In this document: in pieces, positions 9,708 through 14,568 of the stretch | Numbering within the stretch: the first letter of the stretch is position 1 | Layout: every line of letters starts with the position of its first letter | Assembly (NCBI GenBank): GCA_027493055.1 | Contig: JAPUDO010000102.1 | Span: 62,001-126,000 of the forward strand | Length of the DNA stretch: 64,000 bases | Reading direction: 5' to 3' | DNA from: Niabella sp. | Lineage (GTDB): Bacteria > Bacteroidota > Bacteroidia > Chitinophagales > Chitinophagaceae | Notes under the pieces: model-generated | What the model saw: only the letters and a program-made list of their open reading frames with translations | What the model was told of the DNA's origin: nothing | Database searches by the model: none | Translations under genes and position numbers: made by a program

Positions 9708-10718
9708 TTATAACCCGGCCTGCCTGCTAATTTCAAGCATCCTGTCAATTGGTTTTTTAGCTGCCAGGCGTAACTCCTCATCCATAATAATATCAGGCAG
9801 CTCATACTTCATACACAGGTAAATTTTTTCCAGTGTATTACGCTTCATGTGCGGACAGTCATTACACGCACATCCATTATCCGGAGGAGCAGGAATAAAT
9901 TTCTTATGCGGGCTGGATTTCTCCATCTGATGAAGAATACCGGTTTCAGTGGCTACAATAAATTCAGTAGCTTCATTTTCTATAGTGTATTTTAAAAGTC
10001 CTGTAGTGGATCCAACAAAATCTGCCAGTTTTAAAAGAGGCTCTTCACATTCAGGATGTGCAATAAACTTGGCATTAGGATTTTGCTGTTTTAATTTGGT
10101 GATCTTTTCCAGGCTAAAAATTTCATGCACCATACAGGCGCCGTTCCATAACAGCATATCACGTCCTGTAACTTTATTGATATAAGCCCCGAGGTTTTTA
10201 TCCGGTGCAAAAATGATCTTCTGGTCTTCAGGGAAACTATCCACAATGATACGCGCATTACTGCTGGTAACAATTACATCACTTAGCGCCTTAATGCCTG
10301 CACTGCAGTTAATATAGCTCACTACCACATGATCGGGATGTTGCTCTTTAAATTTCTGAAACAATGGTGGCGGACAACTGTCGCTTAAAGAACAACCCGC
10401 CTTAAAGTCTGGAATAACTACCTTTTTGGTTGGATTTAAAATCTTTGCAGTTTCTGCCATAAAATGCACACCGGCAAACACAATCATATCAGCATCTGTT
10501 TTCTCTGCTTCCTGTGCCAGCCCAAGGCTGTCGCCAATGTAATCAGCAATATCCTGTATATCCGCTTCCTGGTAATAGTGCGCCAGGATCACTGCATTCT
10601 TTTCTTTTTTCAGCTTATTAATTTCTTCAAAAAGATCCAGTGTAGGATTCACATCAATATCCAAAAATCCTTTCGCCTCTACTTCCTGCTTTGCATTTTC
10701 CAAAACTGCTGTGTCCAT
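9708..10718 (-). CDS. nadA: quinolinate synthase A
   Basis: A 336-residue NadA, the [4Fe-4S] enzyme that condenses iminoaspartate with dihydroxyacetone phosphate to quinolinate, the first committed intermediate of de novo NAD synthesis. Seen: [17 protein letters not shown] near residue 43, CSLSDSCPP (~residue 110), the [10 protein letters not shown] segment, and [14 protein letters not shown] near the C-terminus, which together supply the cluster cysteines. Length is normal. nadB and nadC are not adjacent; nadD lies 7 kb upstream in the window. The gene is divergent from the DPP gene across the unusual 0.6 kb region at 10.8-11.2 kb. Confidence 0.96.
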
Positions 10719-10800
10719 AATTGTAATTTTTTAAAATCCACTGCAATGATACAATGCCGCAACAAATTTTCTGAAACAATTTTTTGTGCTGCTATTTTTC

Positions 10801-11179
10801 TTCTTAATAATAATTATATAATATATTTTTAAAAAAAACCTATTATTATTAGTAGTGTGAATTAGTGGATAACTTATTATTCACAGTTATTACAAAATTA
10901 GCTTTTAATTGTTTTCCACATAAATAAAGCGTTAATTAACATAGCATATTCAATACAGTGCTTTATTAGGCGTGTTAATTCACAAAAATGTGAATTGTCT
11001 CTTCTTAATAAAAAATGCTTTATTTAAAATTTACATTCTGTTAATAGAGCCGGCATAAATTTATAGAAATGCACTTTTTTAAGAAGCGTTCCTGTTTCTT
11101 CCTATTTTATATCCTAATAACGCTATTTCATATAAACGTTTCACGCGGGGATATCCACATTTTTAAAGACCTATTCACA
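10801..11179. other. candidate oriC / DnaA-box cluster in the nadA-DPP gap
   Basis: This gap (10719-11322) is gene-free. An extremely AT-rich tract (10801-10850) is followed by TATTATTATTAGTAGTG (10841-10857). On the minus strand that reads as consecutive triplets ACT-ACT-AAT-AAT-AAT, like a DnaA-trio element. DnaA-box-like 9-mers follow: TTATCCACT (10864-10872, minus), TTATTCACA (10877-10885, perfect TTATNCACA), TTTTCCACA (10912-10920), TAATTCACA (10976-10984, within a perfect 8-bp inverted repeat 10977-10996), ATATCCACA (11151-11159) and CTATTCACA (11171-11179). The order box, trio, AT-rich tract on one strand is that of the Bacillus unwinding element. dnaA is not in the window. This is a candidate only; strand skew was not computed. 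Confidence 0.45.
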
Positions 11180-11322
11180 TATCTTTGGGGAGAAATAGTT
11201 GATTAAGCCGGAGGTATAACGTAAAATTAATTTGGCACTATCTTAATATGCTGCCGCTGAAGCATTTTTCAAATATCAGCTATAATTATTTAATCCTGTA
11301 ATCCCTGTAATCAAAAAAGATC

Positions 11323-13479
11323 ATGATCAATATGAAAAAATTAGTGCTTGCTTTTTCCTGTTTATTATTTACACTTCTTTCCCGGGCCGATGAAGGCATG
11401 TGGCTCCCGCAATTACTGGAAGTGCTGAATGAAAAGCGTATGAAAGAACTGGGTATGAAAATGAGTGCCAGCGATATATATGATGTTAATAAAAGCAGTC
11501 TTAAAGATGCTATTGTTAGTTTTGGCGGATTTTGTACCGGGGAGGTTATTTCAGACAAAGGCCTGGTGCTGACTAATCATCATTGTGGTTTTGATGCTAT
11601 ACAAAACCATTCCACGCTTGATAAAAATTTTATCCGGGATGGTTTCTGGGCAAAGTCCAATGCTGAAGAATTACCTAATGCAGGTTTATTTGTAACTTTT
11701 ATTATAAGAATTGATGATGTAACCAGCCAGGTTTTAAAAGGCGTTAATAATTCTCTTCCCGAAAACCTGCGTCAGTCGCTGATAGACAAAAATGCAAGAG
11801 AGCAGTTGGGCATTGTTAATAAGGAAGATTACCAGGAAGCTTTTATTCGGCCCTTTTTTGAAGGTAATAAGTATTATCTTTTTGTAACAGAAAAATATGA
11901 TGATGTACGGCTTGTTGGTGCCCCGCCATCAGCTATTGGTAATTTCGGAAAAGATACTGACAACTGGATGTGGCCCAGGCATACCGGGGATTTCAGTATA
12001 TTCAGAATATATGCCGGGAAAGATAATAAGCCCGCACCCTATTCACCAAACAATGTACCTTACAAACCTAAAAAAGCTTTATCTATTTCAATGAGTGGAA
12101 TGGAAGAAGGCGACTTTACAATGATATTTGGCTTTCCCGGAAGAACTACAGAATATTTACCCAGCGAAGCCGTAAACCAGATAATGACAGTAAATGATCC
12201 TGCTAAAATTTTAGTAAGAGATAAAGCGCTGGCTGTAATAGATAAATATATGCGTGCAGATGAAGCCATTAAAATTCAGTATGCTTCAAAGTATGCGGGA
12301 ATTGCTAATGCCTGGAAAAAATGGCAGGGCGAAGTATCAGGGCTTACCAATACCAATGCAGTGGCCAAAAAACAGCGCTATGAAGCTGCGTACAGGGAAA
12401 TATTAAATAATAACCCCGCTTTAAAAGCCAGTTATGGCCAGGTGTTAGACCAGCTGAATGCAGCTTATAAAGAGATACAACCTTTTGCACTGGCGCGCGA
12501 TTATTACCTGGAAACCAGCAGTAAAATAGAACTTTTCACTATTATTAATCGTATAAGAGCTTTAAATACAAAGAAAGATAAATTTGATTATTCCAGTTCC
12601 CTGGCTGCTGAAATAGACTGGATGGGAAATTTTTTGAGGGAGATGAATATAAAAGTGGACAAAGAAGTATTTGCCGCTATGATGGAGTTGTATATTGAAA
12701 AGCAGGACCCCATCTATGTTTCGGGCTTTGCAAAGAAAGAACTTGAAAAATTTAAAGACTATAAAACCTGGGCTGAACATATATACAGCAAAAGTATTTT
12801 TGCTGATAAAGAAAAAGTAAGGGACTTATTAAATAATGATCCTTCTCAATTATTCAATGCACTGGCTGATGATGAAGGAAGCAACCTGCTTATTGCTATT
12901 GCAGACTTGTATGATAAAGATATAGTTATAAAGCTGAATAAGATACAATCACAGATAAACCAGCTGCAAAGAATATATATGCAGGCACAAATGGAAGTAT
13001 TTGCTGATAAAACTTTTTATCCCGATGCCAACAGTAGCCTGCGCGTAGCTTTTGGAAATGTAAGTGGCTACAACTCTCCTGCCGGGAAAAAATATGAATA
13101 CTATACTTACTTAGACGGTGTGATGGAAAAATATAAACCCGGCGATTATGAATTTGATGTACCCGAAAAATTGCGCCAGCTATATAAAAAGAAGGATTAC
13201 GGGAAATATGGAAGCAAAGGAAAAATGCCTGTATGCTTTATAGCTTCCAATCATACTACCGGTGGTAACAGCGGCAGCCCGGCTTTGGATGCTTACGGAA
13301 ACCTGGTAGGTTTAAATTTTGACCGGGTATGGGAAGGAACTATGAGTGATGTGAATTATGATCCTTCTATTTGCAGAAACATAATGGTAGATATAAGATA
13401 TGTTTTGTTTATAGTAGACAAGTATGCCGGAGCAGGGCACCTGGTAAAAGAAATGAAGCTGGTATATCCTAAAAAATAA
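11323..13479 (+). CDS. S46-family dipeptidyl-peptidase, DPP11-like (Asp/Glu-specific)
   Basis: A 718-residue exported serine exopeptidase that removes dipeptides from oligopeptides in the periplasm. A signal peptide ends near LLSRA and the mature N-terminus ADEGMWLPQ is typical of S46 enzymes. The catalytic residues are visible: His87 in TNHHCGFDAIQ, Asp223 in RHTGDFS and Ser650 in GGNSGSPALD. Arg668 in NFDRVWEG lies 18 residues after the catalytic Ser, the same spacing as Ser655/Arg673 of P. gingivalis DPP11, where this Arg sets Asp/Glu specificity; DPP7 has Gly there. The ATG at 11332 is an equally good start. Length is normal and the gene appears monocistronic. Confidence 0.9.
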   Translation: MINMKKLVLAFSCLLFTLLSRADEGMWLPQLLEVLNEKRMKELGMKMSASDIYDVNKSSLKDAIVSFGGFCTGEVISDKGLVLTNHHCGFDAIQNHSTLDKNFIRDGFWAKSNAEELPNAGLFVTFIIRIDDVTSQVLKGVNNSLPENLRQSLIDKNAREQLGIVNKEDYQEAFIRPFFEGNKYYLFVTEKYDDVRLVGAPPSAIGNFGKDTDNWMWPRHTGDFSIFRIYAGKDNKPAPYSPNNVPYKPKKALSISMSGMEEGDFTMIFGFPGRTTEYLPSEAVNQIMTVNDPAKILVRDKALAVIDKYMRADEAIKIQYASKYAGIANAWKKWQGEVSGLTNTNAVAKKQRYEAAYREILNNNPALKASYGQVLDQLNAAYKEIQPFALARDYYLETSSKIELFTIINRIRALNTKKDKFDYSSSLAAEIDWMGNFLREMNIKVDKEVFAAMMELYIEKQDPIYVSGFAKKELEKFKDYKTWAEHIYSKSIFADKEKVRDLLNNDPSQLFNALADDEGSNLLIAIADLYDKDIVIKLNKIQSQINQLQRIYMQAQMEVFADKTFYPDANSSLRVAFGNVSGYNSPAGKKYEYYTYLDGVMEKYKPGDYEFDVPEKLRQLYKKKDYGKYGSKGKMPVCFIASNHTTGGNSGSPALDAYGNLVGLNFDRVWEGTMSDVNYDPSICRNIMVDIRYVLFIVDKYAGAGHLVKEMKLVYPKK

Positions 13480-13854: not shown

Positions 13855-14568
13855 TTACAACAGGTGGTTAGGATTTGGTATAAGCTTTAAGATCTTATGC
13901 AGGTTATCCTGGTAATGTTTTTTGTCCAGCTTATAATAATAGGCCCCTTTTTTAGAATTGCTTTTGTCCTTTTCTTTTTGCTTGATCAGCAGTTTGGTAG
14001 AAAGCATTTTACGGCTGAAATTTCCTTTATCAAAGCTGGTATTAAAAACGTCTTCAAAAAGGCTCTGTAATAAAGGAAGTGTAAACTTTTCAGGTAACAG
14101 CTCAAATAAAATAGTATGGGAAGCGGCTTTATACTGCAGTTTTTTCTGTGCCTGCAATACCATTTCGTTATGATCAAAAATTAAGTTGGGAAAGTCTTTT
14201 ATAGGAAACCATTCTGCTTCAAAATCTGTATTGATAGATTCTTTATACTCATTAATATCAATCAGGGCAAAATAAGCAATAGAAATAGTACGCTGTACCG
14301 GGTCCCTGTCAGGCGATGAAAAAGTGTAGAACTGTTCCAGGTAAATACCTTCCAGCCCCGTAAGTTTTTTGAGAATCCTGTTAGCAGCAGTATCTGCACT
14401 TTCATCCTCGTTTACAAAGCCGCCCATCAAACTCCATTTACCTTTTTCAGGTTCCAGGCCCCTTTTTACCAGTAAAATTTTTAAACGGGTGCCGTCAAAA
14501 CCAAAAACGATGCAATCTACAGCTACGGTAAACTTTGTTATGCGTTGATATCTTTTTTCTTTGGTCAC
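13855..14568 (-). CDS. NrtR/AraR-type Nudix transcriptional regulator
   Basis: A 237-residue regulator with an N-terminal Nudix domain and a C-terminal winged-helix. The Nudix box region GGFVNEDESADTAANRIL (~residues 48-65) keeps the glycines, but the catalytic REUxEExGU core reads NRILKKLTGL, so the hydrolase glutamates are missing, as expected for a ligand sensor. The C-terminal NSKKGAYYYKLDKKHY segment fits the DNA-binding domain. In Bacteroides, a regulator of this family (AraR) controls arabinose genes. Here the divergent neighbour is a GH51 arabinofuranosidase, so a local arabinose regulon is a good inference. The 149-base gap carries candidate operators. Confidence 0.82.
   Translation of the reverse strand: MTKEKRYQRITKFTVAVDCIVFGFDGTRLKILLVKRGLEPEKGKWSLMGGFVNEDESADTAANRILKKLTGLEGIYLEQFYTFSSPDRDPVQRTISIAYFALIDINEYKESINTDFEAEWFPIKDFPNLIFDHNEMVLQAQKKLQYKAASHTILFELLPEKFTLPLLQSLFEDVFNTSFDKGNFSRKMLSTKLLIKQKEKDKSNSKKGAYYYKLDKKHYQDNLHKILKLIPNPNHLL

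Follow-up and report, generated by a model that had tools for sequence, protein, structure and literature searches.

The window analysed here is a stretch of 64,000 nucleotides from a Niabella genome, corresponding to positions 62001-126000 of the 179,458-base contig C102 in an assembly of 5.75 Mb and 131 contigs. A 604-base gap (10719-11322) lies in it between two divergent genes, nadA on the minus strand and a Peptidase S46 gene on the plus strand; a first-pass annotation of this DNA had described the gap as lying between divergent nadA and a DPP gene. The gap holds an AT-rich tract, a run of DnaA-trio motifs with two tandem DnaA boxes beside it, further boxes including an inverted repeat with 8-bp arms at 10977-10984 and 10989-10996, and a distal box array (Table 1). 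An NrtR-like Nudix regulator gene is found at 13855-14568, 3 kb from the gap.

Table 1. Features of the nadA gap and its surroundings, in window coordinates
Feature	Position	Strand	Basis or remark
parS-type site TTTCACGTGGAA	1651..1662	.	motif scan
parS-type site TTTCACGTGGAA	1692..1703	.	motif scan
nadA, quinolinate synthase, conserved neighbour	9708..10718	-	PF02445, NF006878
AT-rich tract, presumed DNA unwinding element	10801..10838	.	A/T only save one C
Five DnaA-trio motifs, 3'->5' GAT GAT TAT TAT TAT	10841..10855	+	as defined in PMC8287927
Second tandem DnaA box TAATTCACA	10856..10864	-	motif scan
DnaA box TTATCCACT	10864..10872	-	motif scan; genus alignment
DnaA box TTATTCACA	10877..10885	+	place not kept in most of 15 genus sequences
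DnaA box TTTTCCACA	10912..10920	+	box-like site recurs there across the genus
DnaA box TAATTCACA, left arm of inverted repeat	10976..10984	+	motif scan; genus alignment
CAATTCACA, right arm of inverted repeat	10989..10997	-	TGTGNATT common to most of 15 genus sequences
Distal array: ATTTCATAT, CGTTTCACG, ATATCCACA (11151-11159), CTATTCACA (11171-11179), then TTGGGGAGAAA	11125..11195	+	
Peptidase S46 gene, right neighbour	11323..13479	+	PF10459

All the boxes named in the first-pass annotation are present where it had placed them, namely TTATCCACT, TTATTCACA, TTTTCCACA, TAATTCACA at 10976 within the inverted repeat, ATATCCACA and CTATTCACA, and the tandem TAATTCACA at 10856-10864 (-) had been overlooked. 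Its triplets ACT-ACT-AAT-AAT-AAT on the box strand have to be replaced, being wrong in both strand and frame; the plus strand reads 3'-GAT-GAT-TAT-TAT-TAT-5' from 10855 down to 10841, and this run is the sole strict match across the 179-kb contig. In agreement with the layout of a basal unwinding system (BUS), the tandem boxes are co-oriented with the better box distal to the trios (TTATCCACT then TAATTCACA), and five motifs are present, the layout calling for three or more 3'-NAN-5' motifs no farther than 16 bp from a box. The better box lies 8 bp from the trios in the window, a distance shorter than the common 10-13. The loose published BUS rule was also tried and discarded as a single-sequence test, because its 259 matches in 179 kb make it useless on one sequence.

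The arrangement recurs across the family at the same place. A profile built from 15 genus sequences (the origin model) was run on 187 loci totalling 2.9 Mb, including the contig itself and 60 evenly spaced 20-kb stretches. Of the 80 named family loci, which are the best 80 of 551 relatives with fragments and near-copies included, 75 match it immediately upstream of nadA (E<=1e-3). The other five are L117 (0.0046), L069 (0.043), L081 (0.3) and, with no match, L091 and L126; outside the nadA upstream regions, no match at E<=0.01 was found in the 2.9 Mb. When a trio/box pattern was searched in 60 whole family genomes, 31 of them each gave a single match with no more than one mismatch, always on the strand opposite to nadA and 50-137 bp upstream of it, and the other 29 gave no match at this limit; matches with 2-3 mismatches include chance sites, as do those of the reversed control. 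In 30 loci drawn from many genera, DnaA boxes likewise stand at comparable distances from the start of nadA. In three genus genomes (G001, G002 and G012) the nadA matches are split or contain a stop, perhaps through assembly errors.

Conservation within the genus alignment is concentrated in two blocks that keep a nearly constant distance, one made up of the AT tract, trios and tandem boxes (10801-10872) and the other of the distal array (11125-11195). The trios and both tandem boxes (35 columns, 15 sequences) show a mean pair identity of 0.89 without gaps and 25 invariant columns, the AT tract at 10801-10838 an identity of 0.77 with few gaps, and the distal array an identity of 0.75 without gaps, its 71 bases being kept in 15/15 sequences. 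The segment between the blocks has an identity of 0.56 yet a length of 249-252, and the flank beyond falls to 0.42 with 23% gaps. A TTGGGGA(G/C)AAA motif follows the distal array at 11185-11195 in most of the 15 genus sequences, and we know of no binding partner for it.

With block models rebuilt once from their own matches and applied family-wide at a lenient limit (E<=0.5), the first block was detected in 99 of 102 upstream sequences and the distal block in 63 of 102, strong distal matches coming mostly from the close relatives of Niabella while most Chitinophaga have none. The three upstream sequences without a trio/box block are L091 (Taibaiella lutea), L126 and L035 (genome G017), in which the origin or nadA may have moved. 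The spacing between block starts in 52 pairs with distal E<=0.05, near-copies such as L013 and L048 included, is 325-334 in 41 pairs, 318-320 in eight, and 313, 342 and 407 in one each, and the step of about 11 bp fits one helical turn. On a NadA tree covering 50 of the 52 pairs, the short class (9 rows) needs five changes, of which well-supported branches force only one, and helical phasing between the two blocks therefore stays a lead.

The first-pass annotation had held that a GC-skew minimum elsewhere would speak against an origin. Over C102, which is only 179 kb of the 131-contig assembly, the cumulative skew is lowest at window position 11383, less than 0.6 kb from the tandem boxes. Skew was further sampled in five of the seven single-contig family genomes (G002 and G011 being left out), with 20 stretches of 20 kb each, or 19 in G034, where the nadA stretch was omitted. 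In four of the five, the sign changes in an interval containing nadA, namely in G003, G007 and G008 (0/2000 shuffles each) and in G034 from another genus (1/2000 shuffles), the break intervals being 150-270 kb wide. In G020, from a third genus and with a weak skew, the best break lies 0.66-0.90 Mb from nadA (40/2000 shuffles), which counts against an origin at nadA; nonetheless, a copy of the trio/box block with 2 mismatches and a single strict parS site are found beside its nadA. Within the 20-kb nadA stretch of G034 the skew minimum falls in the right part, and the fine origin position is unconfirmed in that genome because the minimum is 10 kb from nadA. No gene-strand bias was seen, the leading-strand share of ORF bases being 0.49 on one side of the gap and 0.44 on the other.

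A parS-like cluster 9 kb away had also been reported, and it corresponds to the two TTTCACGTGGAA sites of Table 1. At least one TTYCACGTGRAA site was found within 11 kb of nadA in 8/8 genomes from three genera, in a genome scan that used TTCCACGTGGAA with one mismatch allowed and did not extend to TTTCACGTGAAA sites elsewhere. Of the 49 named loci that extend about 10 kb to either side, 33 have at least one strict parS site on the 3' side of nadA, L125 having an additional one on the opposite side, and in 16 no site lies within reach. The sampled stretches, 2.0 Mb in total, contain only three strict sites, all in the nadA stretch of G034. Total counts of parS-like 12-mers with one mismatch were rejected as evidence, as they are not above the reversed-pattern control (for example, 10 vs 11 in G000), and only the position and the strict form of parS are therefore informative. 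ParB gave one match per genome in 7/7 genomes and is encoded away from the parS sites. An extra parS-type site is located in G034 (C1:2429214), 54 kb from the main pair.

The gap at 10719-11322 between nadA and the Peptidase S46 gene is thus very probably the chromosomal replication origin (oriC) of this Niabella strain, a member of the Chitinophagaceae, as the first-pass annotation had proposed; the skew, the box density, the family-wide conservation, the linkage to parS and the absence of a box cluster around dnaA support this reading. What the sequences themselves display is an above-chance box cluster at the location of the skew switch, an AT-rich element beside the boxes, a conserved order and spacing of the blocks and the linkage to parS. 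On this basis, DnaA would bind the tandem boxes at 10856-10872, and a DnaA oligomer would grow on the plus strand across the trios from 10855 down to 10841 and open the AT tract at 10801-10838, as in the BUS of B. subtilis. More DnaA is probably supplied, via a loop or a fixed nucleoprotein complex, by the distal box array (11125-11195), whose module starts about 330 bp from the start of the first one, and ParB bound at the parS sites 9 kb off would mark the origin for segregation.

In the BUS of B. subtilis oriC (incC) an AT tract likewise lies beyond the trios. The first-pass annotation had likened the trio arrangement to that of B. subtilis, a comparison that needs the above correction of strand and frame. 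In both systems, two co-oriented tandem boxes stand beside the trios (PMC10721633), a short spacer, rich in G/C in most genus members, precedes a trinucleotide run with a middle A, and the strand opposite the trios starts with CTACTA, the B. subtilis sequence being 5'-CTACTATTACTTCTACTA-3' (PMC10201434). The two differ in that most family trios begin with T or C instead of G or A, the window copy has no GC spacer, a distal array is added at a nearly constant distance, the Niabella origin is not beside dnaA, and the family DnaA carries Ile and Ala/Val at the Arg202 and Glu228 positions.

According to PMC8287927, a DnaA-trio is a 3'-NAN-5' motif, and in the assays of that study the trios were placed on a 5' tail that extends away from the boxes; the plus strand was taken as the trio strand because the published scaffold carries this 5' tail. 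Read on that strand, the family consensus comprises four motifs, 3'-(G/C/T)AT, TAT, (T/C)AT, (T/C)AT-5', with the middle A in 98-100% and the third base T in 92-100% of 107 aligned hit rows, which come from 99 sequences, some with two matches, and are unweighted for relatedness. The box-proximal motif is GAT in 45% of rows and the other three start with T or C in 97-100%, while in the window two of the five trios are GAT, the motif preferred in the BUS. A fifth motif arises in the window because TAGTAG, shared with G002, replaces the TA(G/C/T) plus spacer of the others.

It is considered likely that the trios work in the standard BUS polarity on the plus strand. A genuine origin whose trios act in the opposite polarity, the box strand being read as the canonical series 3'-GAT-RAT-RAT-AAT-5' in the reverse direction, appears rather unlikely: the complement of the family consensus, judged from the column counts, does give purine-first trios, but no conserved boxes on the left side are available to seed them, the order of tandem boxes, spacer and trios matches the published layout, and the box-proximal trio is most often GAT in the standard polarity, as in other phyla (PMC8287927).

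The departure of the standard-polarity trios from G-first motifs is accompanied by a change in DnaA. In B. subtilis DnaA, Arg202 and Glu228 hold the trio guanine, and Asn187 and Glu183 hold the adenine, in the account of PMC10721633, which itself describes the pocket residues as not universal. The Niabella DnaA aligns without gaps to B. subtilis DnaA (8btg) in the trio-contact part, and the 8btg letters at 183, 187, 190, 193, 196, 202 and 228 match the numbering of PMC10721633. In DnaA from 30 family loci (26 scored by script and four by eye), Ile202, Glu183 and Asn187 are present in 30/30, and position 228 is Ala in 27 and Val in three. By eye, two further chains, which we take to be those of Thermotoga and Aquifex, also have Arg and Glu at 202 and 228. 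In eight DnaA proteins from the same order outside the family (seven scored by script and one read individually), position 202 is Ile or Val and position 228 is Ile. In 30 listed as sharing only the phylum (the best-scoring 30 of 61 genomes), position 202 is Ser, Thr or Ala, Glu228 is present in 17, and 23 have Ile or Val at 187. From this survey, the loss of Arg202 is wider than the Chitinophagaceae, and the double loss with hydrophobic or small residues is common to the order.

A change in the origin-opening code of the Chitinophagaceae is tentatively proposed from these data. The loss of that side of the DnaA pocket which holds the first trio base (Arg202 to Ile, Glu228 to Ala/Val) might be matched by a drift of the trios from 3'-GAT-5' to 3'-(T/C)AT-5', leaving the middle adenine, read via Asn187 and Glu183, as the only signal, and the weaker trios might be offset by the second box array, whose distance is nearly constant and perhaps helically phased. 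This matched change is an inference; DnaA residues and trio bases that changed together would put the base-capture model of origin opening to a natural test.

A DnaA-titration or regulatory cluster rather than an origin, either datA-like or serving DnaA control of nadA, is quite improbable. Such a role would suit the position of the block, 123-154 bp from the nadA start codon and thus in a possible promoter place, and the short distance between block and nadA in the relatives that carry the block, but it predicts neither the skew sign change seen in four genomes nor the parS linkage, the AT tract with phased trios or the nearly constant spacing to the second array.

In most bacteria oriC is located beside dnaA (PMC6323995, PMC6669920), and this usual location, together with the skew of G020 that breaks away from nadA, could suggest that the true origin lies at dnaA or elsewhere, the gap beside nadA having once been an origin or serving as a partner site. 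This is very improbable, as the 25 dnaA loci from the family, mostly 4.4 kb long, hold just 0-4 boxes each (whole-locus counts, the 600-bp flank windows being misplaced in the clipped L042 and L047), the skew switches at nadA and not at dnaA in four genomes, and the origin model finds no second match at E<=0.01 in 2.9 Mb. The two genes are 1.3-1.9 Mb apart by the shorter way round in G003, G007, G008, G011, G020 and G034, and in the Niabella genome itself dnaA is on another contig, C107.

The density of boxes bears on the last alternative. The gap has seven TTATNCACA sites with at most one mismatch, where 1000 dinucleotide shuffles average 1.18 such sites and never exceed 6, and no 500 bases of the 179,458-base contig are denser than those found here, with eight sites, the best elsewhere having five; the box density, which the first-pass annotation had wished to see compared with other gaps, is therefore the highest of the contig at nadA. 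Across 77 loci (the 80 named loci, best of 551, minus three with less than 600 bp upstream), 6.82 boxes/kb occur in the 600 bp upstream of nadA vs 0.477 in the rest of the same loci, with at least four boxes in 49 loci and none in two. A chance cluster in AT-rich DNA, the alternative raised in the first-pass annotation, is vanishingly unlikely and already contradicted, for although the trio arrangement by itself proves nothing in view of the frequency of loose BUS matches, 0/1000 shuffles reach seven boxes and the region is conserved position by position across genera.

The Escherichia coli oriC likewise combines several boxes, whose distances are kept, with an adjacent AT-rich unwinding element; it differs from the Niabella candidate in location, trios and box order. 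The candidate also shares a box cluster at a skew extreme in an AT-rich intergenic gap with the oriCs predicted by Ori-Finder and collected in DoriC. Predicted records for Chitinophagaceae genomes may already be present in DoriC; the available text of the DoriC paper (PMC6323995) does not mention Bacteroidota. In a literature search of titles and abstract openings, oriC was mentioned for other Bacteroidota such as Prevotella intermedia, and neither an oriC of Chitinophagaceae or Niabella nor an origin beside nadA was found. The gap would provide a concrete origin for a bacterial family, anchored by nadA rather than dnaA, of use in anchoring genomes, in coverage-based growth-rate estimates and in mini-chromosome vectors. 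Some assemblies begin at dnaA, such as G007, and thus 1.3 Mb off nadA.

Beyond the Chitinophagaceae, at the level of the order and class, the link to nadA is a lead that can be checked in existing genomes. Among 18 order-level nadA loci outside the family, eight right-strand upstream matches to the model were obtained at E<0.05 (seven at E<=0.02), one of 940 shuffled control sequences reaching 0.038 with the search size set to 0.2 Mb, and 24 boxes fall in the first 600 bp vs 4 at 700-1300 and 4.2 in shuffles. The 28 class-level loci gave two right-strand matches, L313 (E 1.9e-8, 16 boxes) and L322 (0.022), and a wrong-strand match in L320 (E 0.004); their boxes number 53 vs 13 (7.0 in shuffles), 22 of the 53 coming from L313 and L315, and several other class-level loci have, by eye, a similar layout with TTATCAACA-type boxes. 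A class-wide regular expression matched 6/28 class-level loci vs 2/28 and 0/28 in two control stretches, and 5/18 order-level loci vs 0 and 0, a result that is only a lead because the pattern was written after seeing the sequences.

Individual loci of the class present further variants. L313 (genome G187, from another order of the same class) has its 16 DnaA boxes within 700 bp upstream of nadA. In L315, on the single contig C1 of G100 from the same class, six boxes lie upstream of nadA, and dnaA (32-1423) and nadA (10423-11403) are about 9 kb apart; this layout is perhaps an older arrangement, from which dnaA was separated in the Chitinophagaceae. Upstream of nadA in L320, L324 and L338, an AT tract, trinucleotide repeats, TGTT-type motifs and TTATCAACA-type boxes are observed, and the DnaA box may have switched in these other parts of the class.
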